In this document: positions 24,602 through 36,685 of the stretch, piece by piece | Numbering within the stretch: position 1 is the stretch's first letter | Layout: the number at the start of each line of letters is the position of its first letter | Assembly: GCA_943330455.2 (NCBI GenBank) | Contig: CALQHT020000024.1 | Coordinates: forward strand, 1-36,814 | Reading direction: 5' to 3' | Length of the DNA: 36,814 bases | Origin: Nitrosovibrio sp. Nv4 | Lineage (GTDB): Bacteria; Pseudomonadota; Alphaproteobacteria; Acetobacterales; Acetobacteraceae | The notes under the pieces: generated by a model | The model's input: only the letters and a program-made list of their open reading frames with translations | Told to the model about the DNA's origin: nothing | Databases searched by the model: none | Made by a program: the position numbers and the translations under genes

Positions 24602-24997
24602 GACAGGGGTTGCGTTTGCAAGCGTCCGACTGATGCCGGCGTGGTGGAGATCGCACGCCCAGGCCGGCCGCACGCCCAGGCCGGCCGAAGAAAGAGGCCG
24701 ATCGGCTTCCGGTAGGGGTACGGTGGTGGAGGCGCGCGAGATCAAGCCACCGGCCGACGCGGTGTATCTGGCGCTGGCCATCCGCCGCGACGGCTCACGC
24801 GAGATACTTGGGCTTTTGATCGCACAAAGAAACCCGCGCGCGTCATCGCCCTTGCCGTCACGATCATCCGCCGCTTACAGTCGGTCACCCAATCGTGGGT
24901 GCGACAGCACAAGCCTCACACACAGAAATTCGGATACTCCCCGACATTGTGCCCAAAGGCACACCCGACATGCGCATCAGGCGGCCGTGAGGAAAAA
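24602..24997. other. Intergenic region with a transposase remnant and a 17-bp tandem duplication
   Basis: No intact gene. Two perfect 17-bp units starting GCACGCCCAGG (24653-24669 and 24670-24686) lie in tandem. A short IS256-like coding remnant is annotated separately at 24723-24821. From about 24890 the G+C content falls as the O-methyltransferase gene begins, which suggests a junction between DNA of different origin. Confidence 0.5.
24723..24821 (+). pseudogene. Short remnant resembling an IS256/mutator-type transposase
   Basis: The frame reads VVEAREIKPPADAVYLALAI then RRDGSREILGLLI. This resembles the AVY(L/V)ALGI-x-x-DG-x-(K/R)E(V/I)LGL segment of IS256-family transposases around the first catalytic aspartate region. 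Only about 33 codons are similar, there is no start, and the flanks are unrelated. If real, it is a decayed insertion. Confidence 0.4.
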
Positions 24998-25867
24998 GTG
25001 GACCTTCTCGATCACAACGAAATATATCAGGCGTTCCTGCGGGAGGTTGAAGCACACACCGTTGATGAACGGCTTGCCACAAACCATTGGCGTCAACGAT
25101 GCATCGAGATCCGGGAGAACGCCCGGACCGAAAATCCGTTTGATTTTTTGCGCTGGCCCAGTCTTACGGATTTCAGTGTGCCTGAGTCCTGGATTCCCAG
25201 GAAGTTCTATGATGATCTTCGAAGCAGCCCGGACTGGGCCAGCAGATGGTTTCCCCTCACGCGGGAAAACAAGCTGGGAAACCCCAAGGATTTTTCACCG
25301 GATTTTGGCACCAGCCCGATTCTGGTCCAGCACGCGTCCCATTTGCAGCGATACGAAGCGGCCGCAGGCGGTTCGATCATCGACTGCGATGTGGTGTTTG
25401 AGATTGGTGGTGGTTATGGCTCGTTTTGCCGGCTTCTGCGGAACTCCGGTTTTACTGGCCTGCACGTCATCTACGACCTACCGCATATTTCGTCCATTCA
25501 ACGCCTGTACTTGGCTTTGTCAGGCCTCACCGAGGTGTCTTCCGACGGAATATCGAAACGGGATGAGCACCGATTTTGCCTGATCACGGATGATAACCTG
25601 GACGACGTGTTTGGCATCCTGCGGTCATCCAGGTTGCGAACGGCCTTTGTGGCAACCTGGTCGTTGAGTGAAACGCCCATGTCGGTGCGCGATCGAATAT
25701 TCCCGCGATTCCTGCCCGTCTGCGACCGCTATCTGATCGCGTTTCAACCTGCTTGGGAAACGATCAGCAATGTGGATTATTTTGCGGCCCTACCTTCTGC
25801 CCGTCCCGATCTGAACTGGCGCGATGAAGCGATCCCCCCAACCACCAGCCGCTATCTGTTTGCCTGA
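24998..25867 (+). CDS. Putative sugar O-methyltransferase
   Basis: 289 residues. The AdoMet-binding motif I is visible as VVFEIGGGYGSFCRLL (EIGGGYG, 135-141), followed by an acidic strand-2 end (LHVIYDLPHI). This arrangement matches the putative sugar O-methyltransferase family found in polysaccharide and glycoprotein loci. GTG 24998 is chosen because GAGG lies 6 nt upstream; the frame is open to GTG 24899 with no better SD. It converges on the large glycosyltransferase gene, 29 bp stop to stop, and probably decorates the glycan that enzyme makes. G+C is lower than in the transporter region. Confidence 0.72.
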   Translation: MDLLDHNEIYQAFLREVEAHTVDERLATNHWRQRCIEIRENARTENPFDFLRWPSLTDFSVPESWIPRKFYDDLRSSPDWASRWFPLTRENKLGNPKDFSPDFGTSPILVQHASHLQRYEAAAGGSIIDCDVVFEIGGGYGSFCRLLRNSGFTGLHVIYDLPHISSIQRLYLALSGLTEVSSDGISKRDEHRFCLITDDNLDDVFGILRSSRLRTAFVATWSLSETPMSVRDRIFPRFLPVCDRYLIAFQPAWETISNVDYFAALPSARPDLNWRDEAIPPTTSRYLFA

Positions 25868-25896: not shown

Positions 25897-28689
25897 TCAC
25901 GACCAGAACGGTGGCTGCGGCCGGTAGGGCGACTCTGCTCTCACAAAGATGCCGTCGATCTGAAACAGAGCCTGCCTTTCCAGGAACCTGTGCTCCTCCA
26001 CAATATCGTACAGCACAAACCCGAGGCTCTTGAGTTCCCCCAATACCTCATCAATGAGTGGAGCGCCGCGGTTATAGTCAACCAGCGACAGTTCCATCAG
26101 GATCACTTCAACCATTGCCAGTCTGCTGCCAAGGCCGCGTATGACCTCAAGCTCCGCCCCCTGCACATCGAGCTTCAGCAGTTGAAAGGTCCGCCCCGCA
26201 TCGTCCACGATTGTTTCCAGGGTCGTCTGGCGAATGATCCGTTCTTCGGTCGGAAATTCGGTGTTTTCCTTGAACTTGGAAGATCCGGTCTGGATCGGGT
26301 TGCCGACCGTTCCGGGATTGACCACGAAGAACGACGCCCCATCCTCCTGGTGGGCGCCAAGCAGCGAAATGACGTAATCGGCATTACCGATCGCGGTTCG
26401 GACGCGGTCCAGGATAGGGGCCTTTTCCGCGATTGCGTCCGCCATCAGAATGTAGGCATCCGGAAAAACCGTCCGGACAGACTGCGCGAACCATCCTTCA
26501 TAAGCCCCGATATCCAGAATCCCCCCAGGCTCGAACCCAAGCTGTTTGAGCTTCAGGAGGCCGCTCGTGACGCCATTAGGCACCGTCGTCGCGGAAGCGG
26601 GCGGTTCTCCGACGGCACGTCTGATGAAATCCTGCCACTCCGTCACGCGAACCGACCAGTTGAAAGCAGCCCGGGCGTGATCCTGTTGTTCGGCGGACAA
26701 CGCGACATTCCGTTCCCAGGGGTTCTGGATTTCCTCCGCCAGGATGTCCGCGAACCGTCTTGCGTGATCGGTTGGATCGGAAGGAAATGGATACAGGCGG
26801 GCGAACCGACCGGTGGTTTCGGGAAGCGCGCCCAATGTCGGGCAAATGATCCGGCATCCCGCGGCCATGGCCTCGATCACCGACAGGCAGGATGTCTCGG
26901 AGAACGTGCTGGGGTACAGCAGGAAATCGATGTCGCGTAATGCCTGACGTAATTGGTCATTCGGAACGATGCCGTGGTGATGCACGCCGGGAAGCGATGC
27001 CGAACGCTCGTACAGGTCCTGGTAAGGCTGGTCATCGAAGTCCGGCCCATAAAGTTTCATCGACGACCATATATGCAGTTCGGCGTCGACCGGTCGCAAC
27101 AGATCCCACGCGTTCAGCAGGACCGAAAGCCCGCGGAACGGCGTGCTCGTATAGGCCAACCGGATAGGTTTGTTCGGCGCCCAACGTCGGTTGATCGGAC
27201 TGACCGTGGTGGCATTTCGCAATACGACGCATATATCCGGGCGCAGGCCGAATTGTTCCAGAAAGCGCGCCCTCTGCCACTCCGACACGAACACGAACCA
27301 GGCAACCCGGCTGACCCGTTCTTTGTCGCGCAACCACTGAACCGGCTCTTGATCGATATCATGATGGATCCAAACGACCAGGGGCCGGCCGTCCAGATCG
27401 GACTCTTGATACAGATTCACGCAGAGTTGGATTTTTTTTAGGTCCTGTCCCAATCGACGAGACAGCCCCTCGACCATGAGTTCGGTGCCGCCTTGCGCTC
27501 TGTCCGGGGTCCATCCGTCCCGTGGGTTCGTCAGATTGGCGGCCGATACCGGCAACGCCGCTTGCCGAACCGCGTTGTCGCGCGTCGGTTCGGATGCCAG
27601 CTTGGCAAGGGCGAACCGCGCGTTCGCGTCGATCCGATCCCGCAGTGACTCCGGTAAATTGCCACGCGCCAGCAGCAGCATGTTCGTGTCGAGGCAGGCA
27701 CGGTAATCGCCGGCCCAATAGGCGTTGACGGCAAACTCGTCCAGCAGCCCGTAGTCATAAATCCAGGTCTCGACGAACAGGCCATCCTTGGGGGCTGTCA
27801 GGGCCAGCCCGCGCTTGGCAACCTCGTAGCCTTCCTTGAACCGATCCGCGTGCCGATACAGCCGGCTGGCCCCGTGCAGCGCCTCCGCCCGGTTCGGCGC
27901 CGCATCCGAGGCACGCAGATAGAGCGCGACGACCTCGTCTTTGTTGTGCCCCAGCTCCTGCTTGATTTCAGCGGCACTGTAAAGGCTGCAGAAGATCTCC
28001 TGATCCCAGTAACCCAGTTCGGCGCGTCGCAGATAGGCTTCGACCGCCTTTTGCTTCTCGCCGCTGTCGCGATAGCTCTGGGCCAAATAAAAACTGTAGC
28101 GTGCGATCAGGAATGGGTCGGTTTCGTTCCGCAGCGCGGCTTCCAGGATCGCCGCGTCCTTGCGATAGGTCTCAGGATCGCGCCGCCGAGCACCGTCGTG
28201 GTTGCGGCGCATGACGATCGGCAGATGGCCGGATGCCTTGGTGCCGTCGCAGGTCAGGAACTCGTGCAGGACGCCTCGGTAGCACCATGGCAACGTGTTG
28301 CGTATCATCTGCGGCCGTTGATAGCGGATATTGGTATCCTGGATATCCAAGGTATAGGAATCAGCGGCCAGCGCGGGAAGCTGATAACCCTGTGGGAGCA
28401 TCAGCGCGTCGTCCGCGTCGATAATCAGTGTATAGTCACCGTGTGGGCGCGCGAGCGTCAGTGCTTCCGACCGGTTATAGGCGAAATCCCGCCATGGCCG
28501 TTCATGCAGTTCCCCAGGCAGGTCCTTCAGGTGTTCGCGGATGACATCCTGAGTCCCATCCGTGGATCCCGTATCCACGATGATCCAGTAGTCTATGATC
28601 GGGCGCACGGATTCCATGCAGCGGCGGATCACCGGCGCCTCGTTCTTGACGATCATCGACAGACAGACCGTTTGGCCTTGGGCGTTCAT
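25897..28689 (-). CDS. Trifunctional glycosyltransferase: GT2 + TPR-like + GT4 + FkbM methyltransferase
   Basis: 930 residues with three enzyme-like parts. (1) Residues 1-200: GT-A family 2, with SMIVKNEAPVI, DTGSTDG (39-45) and the metal/nucleotide site DADD (91-94), followed by helical TPR-like repeats (about 195-365). (2) Residues about 395-690: GT-B family 4, with QGGTE (399-403), HIWSSMKLYG, and SETSCLSVIEAMAAGCR (597-613) carrying the E-x7-E-type nucleotide-sugar site. (3) Residues about 705-915: FkbM-type methyltransferase, with LDIGAYEGWF (725-734) and LLKLDVQGAELEVIRG (837-852). A single polypeptide could therefore add two sugars and methylate a product. No signal peptide is seen, so it acts in the cytoplasm. 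A GAGGAG SD lies about 9 nt upstream of ATG 28689. It is divergent from the large surface-protein gene. Confidence 0.88.
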   Translation of the reverse strand: MNAQGQTVCLSMIVKNEAPVIRRCMESVRPIIDYWIIVDTGSTDGTQDVIREHLKDLPGELHERPWRDFAYNRSEALTLARPHGDYTLIIDADDALMLPQGYQLPALAADSYTLDIQDTNIRYQRPQMIRNTLPWCYRGVLHEFLTCDGTKASGHLPIVMRRNHDGARRRDPETYRKDAAILEAALRNETDPFLIARYSFYLAQSYRDSGEKQKAVEAYLRRAELGYWDQEIFCSLYSAAEIKQELGHNKDEVVALYLRASDAAPNRAEALHGASRLYRHADRFKEGYEVAKRGLALTAPKDGLFVETWIYDYGLLDEFAVNAYWAGDYRACLDTNMLLLARGNLPESLRDRIDANARFALAKLASEPTRDNAVRQAALPVSAANLTNPRDGWTPDRAQGGTELMVEGLSRRLGQDLKKIQLCVNLYQESDLDGRPLVVWIHHDIDQEPVQWLRDKERVSRVAWFVFVSEWQRARFLEQFGLRPDICVVLRNATTVSPINRRWAPNKPIRLAYTSTPFRGLSVLLNAWDLLRPVDAELHIWSSMKLYGPDFDDQPYQDLYERSASLPGVHHHGIVPNDQLRQALRDIDFLLYPSTFSETSCLSVIEAMAAGCRIICPTLGALPETTGRFARLYPFPSDPTDHARRFADILAEEIQNPWERNVALSAEQQDHARAAFNWSVRVTEWQDFIRRAVGEPPASATTVPNGVTSGLLKLKQLGFEPGGILDIGAYEGWFAQSVRTVFPDAYILMADAIAEKAPILDRVRTAIGNADYVISLLGAHQEDGASFFVVNPGTVGNPIQTGSSKFKENTEFPTEERIIRQTTLETIVDDAGRTFQLLKLDVQGAELEVIRGLGSRLAMVEVILMELSLVDYNRGAPLIDEVLGELKSLGFVLYDIVEEHRFLERQALFQIDGIFVRAESPYRPQPPFWS

Positions 28690-29475
28690 GGGGTTCTCTC
28701 CTCTATCGCGAGTCGCGATGCAAGGCCCAACGGTGCGCGTCGCATGCAGCTACGGGATTGGGGGAGTGCCCGGGCCTGTGTCCTGCTGTCGGAAATGATG
28801 GCGGTTCCCTTCCATGGCTGCCCCGTGGCTTCATAGGTTCTGATTGAGAGGTTGCAAAGAGGTGGTTCGGCTATCGACCTGGGTGCAATCCGCGGTCCGC
28901 ACAACGGGATTATCGCGTGCGCCGTTGCTGTAGAAATATGAATGGCCGATTACCACCGACGGGGGATCGTCGTCTGGCACAACACCCATTGGGTTAAGGC
29001 CTGGATAAGGGCGCGCCGAAAATACTCCCAAAAGGGTCGTTCACCAAAAAAATACAACCTAAAGAGGTGTACCAATTTTGAATTAACCGCGTAGGTTTTC
29101 ATCGTAGGGTCCAGAGCGCACTCATGATACCCGGCTCACCGCCCAAATCACATCCAGCCATAACCCGATGTAACTGAAATCCGATTGACACCCCTTTCGG
29201 GTCATCATTAGATATCCATAAAATGATGCAAAGCTAAATTACGATTGGCACGCCGACGTCGTTCGGACGAACAAAGCGAAGCGGGGATCCAGATGACGCC
29301 GACACCAGGCCCGTCACAGGCGCTGTCGCATGACACCGCGCGCCAACAGCGAACCCCCGATATCGGGGGGGCGCATCGCATCGTCCCCGGTCTGCCGTCG
29401 TCCTGTTCCCCGAAATCCCCCCCGCACCATTCCCGTGTCGGAACCGATATGACCATAAGCCGCCAGGAGGCAAAA
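28690..29475. other. Divergent intergenic region between the glycosyltransferase and the adhesin
   Basis: 786 bp without a supported gene. The part from about 29000 to 29240 is clearly AT-richer than the flanks and includes a perfect TTGACA box. Reading frames that extend the adhesin upstream (to TTG 29245, ATG 29293 or ATG 29449) lack similarity and lack a good ribosome site. Confidence 0.5.
29185..29228 (+). promoter_or_regulatory. Candidate promoter and operator-like palindrome for the adhesin gene
   Basis: TTGACA (29185-29190) is followed after 17 bp by TTAGAT (29208-29213), a weak -10. The -10 overlaps a 7-bp inverted repeat, CATCATT (29203-29209) and AATGATG (29222-29228), which could bind a regulator. 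The leader would be about 250 nt. Confidence 0.35.
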
Positions 29476-33290
<3,815 letters not shown>

Positions 33291-35061: not shown

Positions 35062-35919
35062 ATGAATCCTATGAACAAGCTCACCTCCGCCAAGCGCGCT
35101 GAAATCCTCGGAATGATGGTCGAGGGCATGAGCCTTCGGGCTATCGCCCGCCTGACGGGCGCCAGCAAAAACACCATCGTCAAGCTGTTGGAGGACGCGG
35201 GGGAGGCATTCAGCGACTATCAGGACCGCCATCTGCGGAACCTGACCTGCAAGCGCATTCAGGTCGATGAGATTTGGGCGTTTTGCTACGCCAAGCAGAA
35301 GAACGTCGAAACGGCCAAGGCACCACCCGCCGACGCTGGCGATTTGTGGACGTGGACCGCCATCGACGCGGATACCAAGCTGATCCCGTCCTTTTATGTT
35401 GGCCGTCGTGACAGCGATGCGGCTCACCTGTTTATCAGTGACCTGGCGGGCCGCCTCACCAGCCGGGTGCAGCTTACCAGCGACGGCCACAAGCCCTACC
35501 TGGAAGCGGTGGAAGCGTCCTTCGGCGCCGATATCGACTACGCCATGCTGGTGAAGATTTACGGCGGCGGCGGGTCCTCGGTCGGCCGCTACAGCCCCGC
35601 CGATTGCGTTGGCGCTATCCCCCAGCGCGTGGAAGGCCGGCCCGACCCGAAGCACATCAGCACGTCCTACGCCGAGCGCGCCAACCTTTCAATCCGCATG
35701 GGATCGCGCCGCCTGACGCGCCTCACCAACGCATTCAGCAAGAAGGCCGCGAACCACGAACACGCGATGGCGATCTATTTTATGCATTACAATTTCGTCC
35801 GCATCCACCAGACCCTGCGGTGCACCCCCGCTATGGCCGCCGGGGTGACGCCCAAGCTTTGGGAATTGACGGACATGGTAAGGGTGTTGGAGGATTGGGA
35901 GGCAAACAAGATCGAATAG
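35062..35919 (+). CDS. IS1-type DDE transposase
   Basis: 285 residues. An N-terminal helix-turn-helix (LRAIARLTGASKNTIVKLLE) is followed by the catalytic core: Asp69 in IQVDEIWAFCYAKQK, Asp141 in LTSDGHKPYLEAVE, and Glu204 in YAERANLSIRMG. The C-terminus HYNFVRIHQTLR...TPAMAAGV is typical of this widespread group annotated as IS1-family. G+C is higher than in its neighbours, so it arrived separately. I saw no clear terminal inverted repeats at its flanks. The methyltransferase gene starts 13 bp downstream. Confidence 0.88.
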   Translation: MNPMNKLTSAKRAEILGMMVEGMSLRAIARLTGASKNTIVKLLEDAGEAFSDYQDRHLRNLTCKRIQVDEIWAFCYAKQKNVETAKAPPADAGDLWTWTAIDADTKLIPSFYVGRRDSDAAHLFISDLAGRLTSRVQLTSDGHKPYLEAVEASFGADIDYAMLVKIYGGGGSSVGRYSPADCVGAIPQRVEGRPDPKHISTSYAERANLSIRMGSRRLTRLTNAFSKKAANHEHAMAIYFMHYNFVRIHQTLRCTPAMAAGVTPKLWELTDMVRVLEDWEANKIE

Positions 35920-35932
35920 GGGTGGAATCCAC

Positions 35933-36685
35933 ATGGCTCATAATAGCACTCAGGCCGGCCGTCTCTATTATGGAGACAACCAAGATATCCTTCGCGACCA
36001 GCGAAAGATCAAGGATGAGTCAGTGGACTTATGTTATATTGATCCGCCATTCAATTCTAAAAGAAACTATAACCAAATATATAACAATATCGGCACAGAG
36101 GACCGCGCCCAAGCTCAAGCGTTTATGGATACATGGACATGGGACGATCTAGCCATTGCTGGATTCGATGAAATTATCGACAACGCAAGAGGGCGTTTTC
36201 AACCTAAAATGGTCGATCTTATTAAGGGGCTTGAACCCGTATTGGCCAGAGGCAGTCTGCTTGCATATCTTGTCAGCATGTCACTTCGCATCACCGAAAT
36301 CCACAGGGCATTGAAGCCGACAGGGACATTCTTTCTTCATTGTGACCCTAACGCTAGTCACTATCTTAAACTTGTGCTCGACACTATATTCTGCGGACAA
36401 GGTGGCGACTTTATAAACGAAATAGTCTGGTGTTATAGTCAAGGAGGGAAAAGCAAGGGGCATTTCGGCAGAAAACATGATGTTATATTTTGGTATTCCA
36501 AGGGGCGCGATTACACATTCAATGATAAGTCCGTGCGCCTTCCTCTTACACCACATAAGAAGGATGCTTCAGGTAGGAATTATGGCGGAAGGATGGGTGT
36601 GGACGAAGCCGGCCGGGAGTATACAGAAAAATGGGGGACTGGCAGAAAGAAGCTATATCGCGAGCAACTTGCAAAAGCCAACTGA
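35933..36685 (+). CDS. Adenine-specific DNA methyltransferase, C-terminally truncated
   Basis: 250 residues of a beta-class N6-adenine/N4-cytosine methyltransferase. Catalytic motif IV is DPPF (37-40) in CYIDPPFNSKRNYN. The recognition region (ETx, IVWCYSQGGKSKGHFGRKHD) and WGTGRKKLY follow. In this class AdoMet motif I (P-x-x-K-P, then D-P-F-x-G-S-G-T) comes last; it is absent here. Similarity ends at about 36657 and a TGA follows at 36683. The protein is therefore probably inactive, cut by insertion of the element at the right edge. SD AGGGGTGG lies about 8 nt before ATG 35933. Low G+C marks it as acquired. Confidence 0.82.
   Translation: MAHNSTQAGRLYYGDNQDILRDQRKIKDESVDLCYIDPPFNSKRNYNQIYNNIGTEDRAQAQAFMDTWTWDDLAIAGFDEIIDNARGRFQPKMVDLIKGLEPVLARGSLLAYLVSMSLRITEIHRALKPTGTFFLHCDPNASHYLKLVLDTIFCGQGGDFINEIVWCYSQGGKSKGHFGRKHDVIFWYSKGRDYTFNDKSVRLPLTPHKKDASGRNYGGRMGVDEAGREYTEKWGTGRKKLYREQLAKAN

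Follow-up and report, generated by a model that had tools for sequence, protein, structure and literature searches.

Our analyses show that the minus strand of the DNA studied here, a stretch of 36,814 nucleotides (hereafter the window), encodes at positions 25897-28689 a single unbroken ORF of 930 amino acids (P0001) in which a GT2 glycosyltransferase, a TPR-like solenoid, a GT4 glycosyltransferase and an FkbM-family methyltransferase follow one another. Judged from its sequence and from structural models, P0001 appears to be a real, functional-looking fusion and a variant form of enzymes already known to glycosylate proteins. To judge by the adjacent genes and by its relatives, it may decorate threonines in a collagen-like surface protein encoded next to it. 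An earlier note on this DNA had claimed the same order of parts in one 930-residue chain, leaving the strand unnamed, and the single ORF bears this out.

A 930-residue fusion of two glycosyltransferases and a methyltransferase

A Shine-Dalgarno-like site (GAGGAGAG, 28696-28703) lies 6 nt upstream of the P0001 start codon. The plus strand of positions 25897-28689 contains stops. GC3 is 0.72 in P0001 and about 0.8 in several neighbour genes. The chain is composed of the following features.

25897..28689, minus strand: P0001, the GT2(GT-A)-TPR-GT4(GT-B)-FkbM ORF, with its ATG at 28689 and its stop at 25897-25899
28195..28689, minus strand: GT2 / GT-A domain, residues 1-165 (PF00535; block pLDDT 88-98; kin of SunS and GmaR)
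28408..28419, minus strand: DxD motif D91-A92-D93-D94 (conservation in a 51-row alignment)
28261..28266, minus strand: conserved pair H142-E143 of the GT-A domain (H142 in 51/51 rows, E143 in 50/51)
27592..28170, minus strand: TPR-like helical solenoid, residues 174-366 (profile match over 173-295 and helices in the model)
26590..27513, minus strand: compact GT4 / GT-B domain, residues 393-700 (PF13692/PF00534; model; fold matches)
26872..26898, minus strand: EX7E motif E598-E606 (E598 in 34/34 rows, E606 in 33/34)
25900..26577, minus strand: FkbM-family methyltransferase module, residues 705-930 (PF05050, TIGR01444)
26494..26514, minus strand: AdoMet-binding loop DIGAYEG, residues 726-732 (D726, G728, A729 and G732 in 6/6 rows)
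26152..26175, minus strand: FkbM motif K839-LDVQGAE-846 (K839, D841, Q843, G844 and E846 in 6/6 rows)

P0001 matches Pfam Glycos_transf_2 (PF00535) over residues 12-96 (41.3 bits, curated cut-off 23.3), Glyco_trans_1_4 over residues 518-650 (43.1 bits, curated cut-off 27) and Methyltransf_21/FkbM (PF05050) over residues 726-892 (50.5 bits, cut-off 22.7, covering profile positions 1-172 of 173); it also exceeds the cut-off of NCBIfam TIGR01444 (FkbM; 44.3 against 37.7 bits). The TPR part of the single protein scores under the Pfam cut-offs, and a 51-row profile of relatives matches solved TPR proteins over residues 173-295. The motifs proposed in the earlier note could be placed precisely. DADD at 91-94 was correct, its invariant portion being D91-A92-D93 (51/51 rows), followed at position 94 by D in 35 rows, E in 15 and M in one; the site like E-x7-E near 597-613 is exactly the pair E598 and E606; and the AdoMet motif assigned to 725-732 is D726-I-G-A-Y-E-G732, whose D, G, A and G are retained in all six rows. 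Residues D39, D91, D93, H142, R197, R222 and R267 are conserved in 51/51 GT2-TPR rows, and H142-E143 is a candidate catalytic or acceptor site of the GT-A domain.

In a 64-row full-length alignment, some parts of GT4 and FkbM fell on the wrong domain, and GT2-TPR and GT4 were therefore modelled separately with AlphaFold. The GT2-TPR model (384 aa, 51 rows) has a mean pLDDT of 94.4 and is all-helical from about residue 174 on (helices 174-366), and the GT4 model (320 aa, 34 rows) has a mean pLDDT of 92.3. In these models the GT2 domain adopts a GT-A fold and the GT4 domain a GT-B fold with two Rossmann-like halves; together with the Pfam matches, they support the claim that two glycosyltransferases of different folds are joined to a methyltransferase. 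At the level of fold and motif, neither model showed a missing pocket, which the earlier note had named as counting against its reading. The best fold matches of the GT2-TPR model are SunS/ThuS (Z 22.4 to 21.8; 7msp_A, Z 22.4, 268 residues, rmsd 2.6), and its GT-A part next matches WrtF (Z 17.8, 155 residues). HepE, MshA and SenB tie as best matches of the GT4 model (Z about 25, over model residues 2-308), which also fits SdgB (Z 24.4) and GtfA (Z 23.8), two enzymes that, by their entry titles, glycosylate proteins. In the alignment, the stretch of the GT4 N-domain between the GGTE loop and the C-terminal half has fewer residues than in the Azospirillum relative L038. Phage GT4 genes are also short, with CDSs of 954, 948 and 948 nt (317, 315 and 315 aa) in DLP_6, HTVC027P and phiM12, and we read this compactness as a family trait common to the phage relatives and not as decay. 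For FkbM, a profile search against solved structures gave no match; by its Pfam and NCBIfam profiles and conserved motifs, the module is a predicted methyltransferase.

Resemblance to known glycosylation systems

The SunS/ThuS peptide S-glycosyltransferases, the top solved fold match of GT2-TPR, are also found by profile, but P0001 reaches only 30.6 bits in the SunS family (TIGR04195), the equivalog cut-off of which is 350; on sequence and model, this likeness is one of distant kinship and fold. GmaR, which glycosylates flagellin, is the best solved match of P0001 by single sequence and also appears in the profile search.

SgtA of Clostridioides difficile, compared here by its published layout, is a protein of 358 aa with GT-A at 1-260 and TPR at 262-358, encoded directly upstream of bclA3 (PMC7157674). 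The corresponding half of P0001 likewise consists of GT-A followed by TPR in about 360 aa, and its gene also lies beside a collagen-like gene (here P0006). According to the same account, SgtA modifies Thr in BclA3 collagen-repeat peptides with beta-O-GlcNAc, and Ser-replaced peptides were also employed in that work (PMC7157674). SgtA is, however, a single unit, whereas P0001 has GT4 and FkbM fused behind, and it comes from a spore-former, whereas the host of P0001 is probably an alphaproteobacterium. In another report, one GT2 protein of C. difficile type B flagellin is credited with adding two rhamnoses and with their methylation, the latter by its authors' inference (PMC5207246). Like P0001, this protein would unite sugar addition and (partly inferred) methylation; unlike P0001, it is described there as acting once GlcNAc has been attached by a different enzyme, to which it then adds its two rhamnoses, and its methyltransferase is Pfam 08241 instead of FkbM.

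A divergent neighbour with a collagen-like tail

Two neighbours of P0001 and one part of them are relevant here.

29245..33237, plus strand: P0006, divergent neighbour, a DUF4347 and Ser/Thr-rich repeat protein and candidate substrate
33028..33234, plus strand: collagen-like C-terminal tail of P0006 (Pfam Collagen, 31.7 bits)
24899..25867, plus strand: convergent neighbour of 322 aa with a weak resemblance to 'putative sugar O-methyltransferase'

P0006 has 1330 aa as called from a TTG at 29245, the likelier true start being the ATG at 29449, and Ser and Thr make up 24.1% of its residues 85-1262. Its tail, (Gly-Ala-Thr)n, counts 23 Gly-X-Y triplets, 21 of which have Thr at Y; it is short and sits at the far end of the gene, 4.3 kb from the P0001 start. 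Six Collagen matches occur in the genome, at two places only: the P0006 locus and the end of another contig. The earlier note did not mention this neighbour as a candidate substrate. The convergent 322-aa protein has no Pfam match and reaches 26.7 bits with TIGR04371, under the cut-off of 44. Between P0001 and P0006 no promoter-like site was found where 0.6 were expected, which says little.

Relatives with optional C-terminal modules

We scanned genome contigs with two peptide patterns, both from the GT2 domain, so that the scan covers GT2-bearing relatives. It yielded 74 loci that encode a relative, in most of which the match is confined to about residues 1-365, and by sequence we read GT2-TPR as a unit some 360 aa long to which further modules may be added. 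These are a second GT2 (L003, L097), an Anp1-like part (L004, L045, L108) or Anp1-like plus GT25 parts (L036), FkbM (L046), GT4 plus a pyruvyl transferase part (L065), and GT4, DUF6625, methyltransferase and F5/8 parts (L052). Apparent N-terminal fusions in L074, L092 and L096 were rejected, their translations resembling out-of-frame readings of upstream genes; these three, together with L071, which has extra sequence at the N-terminus only, were removed by hand from the fused class. The 20 genes that remain extend at the C-terminus by 180 residues or more.

The idea that the fusion is unique had to be abandoned, the identical domain order being present in four Methylobacterium records of named strains (L035, L039, L040, L041), which also makes an assembly artefact unlikely. 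Their proteins are 58-59% identical to P0001 over residues 1-689 or 1-705 (L035: 58%, 1-705), with GT2-TPR and GT4 each 60-63% identical and a collagen-like run nearby; by contrast, the FkbM module of L035 gives no BLASTP alignment to that of P0001. The genome's squalene-hopene cyclase is 70-74% identical to those of three Rhodospirillales MAGs and 61-63% to those of Methylobacterium, Bradyrhizobium and two other Hyphomicrobiales genomes. By this one protein, the host is probably an alphaproteobacterium of the Rhodospirillales type. Since the GT2-TPR-GT4 kin occur in Hyphomicrobiales, horizontal transfer of the fusion gene seems likely. The GC3 of P0001, below that of its neighbours, agrees with such a transfer. 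Among the literature matches listed, we found no description of a GT2-TPR-GT4-FkbM architecture, and our searches found no paper joining Methylobacterium, collagen-like protein and glycosyltransferase.

Gly-X-Y runs near GT2-TPR genes

Gly-X-Y runs of at least 8 triplets occur in 12 of 45 GT2-TPR loci (567,309 bases), hand-picked from the 74, mainly on long contigs, after the run-bearing loci were already known, versus none of 45 control windows, one from the same contig per locus (589,500 bases; Fisher p = 2e-4). The other 33 of these 45 loci lack a run. Among the 12 positives, L046 has a Gly-rich run with little Thr, and without it the comparison becomes 11 versus 0 (p about 5e-4). Six long-contig loci (L040, L050, L057, L062, L065, L091) stayed outside the 45; across all 74 loci a run is present in 22, a share much as in the selected set.

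The association is seen in all six proteins in which a P0001-like GT4 follows GT2-TPR (P0001, L035, L039, L040, L041, L065), each with a Thr-rich run 0.7-4.3 kb away; these records are not independent, because four come from a single genus, and within it L035 and L041 are almost copies of each other. Among the 20 genes with C-terminal extras, 16 have a Gly-X-Y run in the DNA examined, and for 14 (at 13 loci) Thr fills at least 30% of the Y positions of the closest run; the second gene of L042 sits 7.7 kb from its run, and L046 and L168 are run-positive but Thr-poor. Before the N-terminal correction, the tally was 17/24 fused versus 13/62 single-unit genes with runs. Over 28 run-bearing loci, the Thr share has a median of 0.67 at Y, compared with 0.02 at X. 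In a review, Thr at Y is given as 31.6% for the collagens of all bacteria and 48.3% for those of Gram-positives (PMC8968730); Thr at Y is weaker as evidence because, in bacterial collagens generally, no residue is more frequent at Y than Thr.

GT4 and FkbM as a phage gene pair

When the FkbM sequence was used on its own as query against viral contigs, no relative was found. Of at least 423 viral FkbM relatives, 80 loci are listed, and 21 of these also carry a GT4 relative, which precedes FkbM in 19 and shares one ORF with it in two (L320, L323). Because their relatives adjoin in 21 of the 80 listed loci, GT4 and FkbM plausibly act on one product. Among the 80 viral GT4 loci listed (of 244), only three hold an FkbM-like gene, of another type, which means that the pairing belongs to a subset. 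Some viral loci look like copies of one phage (L255/L256, L283/L285, L212/L214), and L320 and L323, alike as they are, perhaps also come from a single one.

The cassette of the viral contig L253 is similar to P0001, with a GT4 54% and an FkbM 42% identical, both FkbM sequences terminating in PFWS. In the GT4 tree P0001 groups with L065 and Methylobacterium (95/90) and then with L253 (100/99). In the FkbM tree it pairs with L253 at 88/78, which is not strong, within a viral group (97/95), and the FkbM modules of L035 and L039 branch far away; the FkbM cap may have been swapped or separately gained.

Eight phage stretches were inspected, one of which (L352) has FkbM without this GT4. As in P0001, GT4 stands before FkbM, often in overlapping genes, in the GT-A/GT4/FkbM cassettes of L346-L349, L253/L345 and partly L351; unlike in P0001, the genes are mostly separate, and the first glycosyltransferase belongs to a different type and lacks the TPR part. 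By profile annotation, L348 has a virion-structural or tail-spike-like gene, a weak GT2-like gene, GT4 and FkbM, followed by a sulfotransferase, one gene without Pfam match, an APS-kinase-like and a cytidylyltransferase-like gene, and by eye, from ORF starts, the arrangement looks the same in L346, L347, L349 and partly L351. Gly-X-Y runs of at least 6 triplets occur in called ORFs of two of the eight stretches (L346, L350). The GT4-FkbM half of P0001 resembles a phage gene pair.

Proposed function and alternatives

We consider it reasonably probable that P0001 is a soluble cytoplasmic enzyme assembling, with one chain, an O-glycan for the repeat-rich surface protein P0006. The TPR solenoid would hold the unfolded Thr-rich repeat, the GT-A domain would attach a first sugar, probably GlcNAc, to Thr, the GT4 GT-B domain would attach a second sugar, the FkbM domain would O-methylate the latter and so cap the glycan, and the glycoprotein would be exported after its modification. 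In this scheme we infer the sugars, acceptor, product, order of action, methylated hydroxyl, cytoplasmic place and export. In its favour are the conserved motifs and confident models, the kinship with peptide glycosyltransferases, the SgtA precedent, the P0006 tail, the runs near GT2-TPR genes, the viral GT4-FkbM pairing and the C. difficile flagellin GT2. Against it count the 33 of 45 loci that lack a run, the shortness and far position of the P0006 tail, the general frequency of Thr at Y, the dependence among the six records and the scarcity of FkbM-like genes (3 of 80) in the viral GT4 loci listed. The first sugar is probably placed on a protein side chain, because GT2-TPR resembles SunS in sequence and fold, GmaR in sequence and SgtA in layout. 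The disaccharide-and-methyl assembly enzyme of the earlier note thus stands as to its three catalytic parts and their motifs, and omitted the acceptor, probably a protein.

Alternatively, P0001 might glycosylate some other protein, such as a flagellin, a pilin or another adhesin, the collagen-like neighbour being a bystander. The flagellin glycosyltransferase GmaR as best solved match by single sequence speaks for this, as do the 49 of 62 single-unit relatives without a run in the DNA examined. We nevertheless hold it to be unlikely, as a Thr-rich run lies near 6/6 proteins with a P0001-like GT4 behind GT2-TPR, and the 22 window ORFs scanned, P0001 apart and with several small ORFs outside the scan, gave no flagellin-like or pilin-like Pfam match. 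A role in polysaccharide synthesis (LPS, capsule or EPS), in which the enzyme would cap a lipid-linked glycan with a methylated disaccharide, is less probable still. In its favour, surface-polysaccharide loci commonly contain all three domain types, GT2, GT4 and FkbM, and pelagiphage glycosyltransferases are read as changing the host O-chain in one publication (PMC7029224); the TPR part and the kinship with peptide glycosyltransferases indicate a protein acceptor instead, no sugar-nucleotide, flippase or polymerase match appeared among the scanned window ORFs, and no membrane segment was noticed when the chain was read by eye. The wording of the earlier note may imply this polysaccharide reading.

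A decayed or assembly-made fusion that has no coordinated function seems very improbable: P0001 and its Methylobacterium relatives have unlike FkbM modules, the TPR part is weak by Pfam and GC3 is 0.72 versus about 0.8 in several neighbours, but the frame is open, the motifs are conserved, the ribosome-binding site is good and four records of named strains share the domain order.

A wider reading is put forward tentatively and as possibly wrong: a mobile protein-glycan line of fixed order (first glycosyltransferase, compact GT4, FkbM), common to phages and bacteria, may decorate fibrous Thr-rich repeat proteins, those of the virion or tail in phages and collagen-like surface proteins in bacteria. 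In P0001 this line would be fused whole, starting, extending and methyl-capping the glycan, with an exchangeable FkbM cap; the methylation of the fibres would then be expected to vary among related bacteria. For some phage glycosyltransferases, it offers a second reading, in which they may modify the virion's own fibres and not the host O-chain. In the review cited above, prokaryotic collagens are held to be mostly not glycosylated (PMC8968730), and a GT2-TPR family lying near Gly-X-Y genes in about three of every ten loci (22/74), sometimes joined in one chain to enzymes for extension and capping, would make that view directly testable. Fusions of the P0001 type would also offer ready one-chain tools to glycosylate recombinant collagen-like materials.

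Neighbouring genes of the fusion and of the surface protein

The gene for the GT2-TPR-GT4-FkbM fusion and the surface-protein gene are flanked in the window by:

24899-25867, convergent ORF, 322 aa, with a weak below-cut-off match to "putative sugar O-methyltransferase"
35062-36685, end of the window and downstream of the gene for the surface protein: a DNA methylase, and an IS1-like transposase that scores under its family cut-off

The convergent ORF may encode a second methylating enzyme acting on the same glycan as the fusion protein.

Collagen-like genes and giant multi-enzyme chains

Loci in other records and on another contig of the window's genome include:

L035, 9213-11630, and L039, 2715-5735, collagen-like proteins with a Hint (self-processing) domain, adjoining two Methylobacterium homologues
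Contig C16, 4-759 (L164), second collagen-like gene of the window's genome, truncated by the contig start
L065, 2289-7205, 1638-aa chain: pyruvyl transferase, GT2-TPR, GT4
L052, 5929-10395, 1488-aa chain: GT2-TPR, GT4, DUF6625, methyltransferase, F5/8

In both Methylobacterium neighbours the Hint domain lies at the C-terminal side. The main run of the truncated gene carries Thr at the third position of 61 of its 68 Gly-X-Y triplets; no second GT2-TPR was found in this genome at E <= 0.001. Close to each giant chain lies a Thr-rich collagen run.

Phage gene cassette with a possible role in glycan synthesis

L348, 8587-13710, viral contig, gene cassette (profile annotation)

Preceded by a virion-structural/tail-spike-like gene, this cassette comprises, in order, weak GT2-like, GT4, FkbM and sulfotransferase genes, a gene without Pfam match, and APS-kinase-like and cytidylyltransferase-like genes. 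Compared by eye, the viral contigs L346, L347 and L349 resemble it, and L351 does so partly. Such gene content suggests virion proteins bearing sulfated, methylated glycans.
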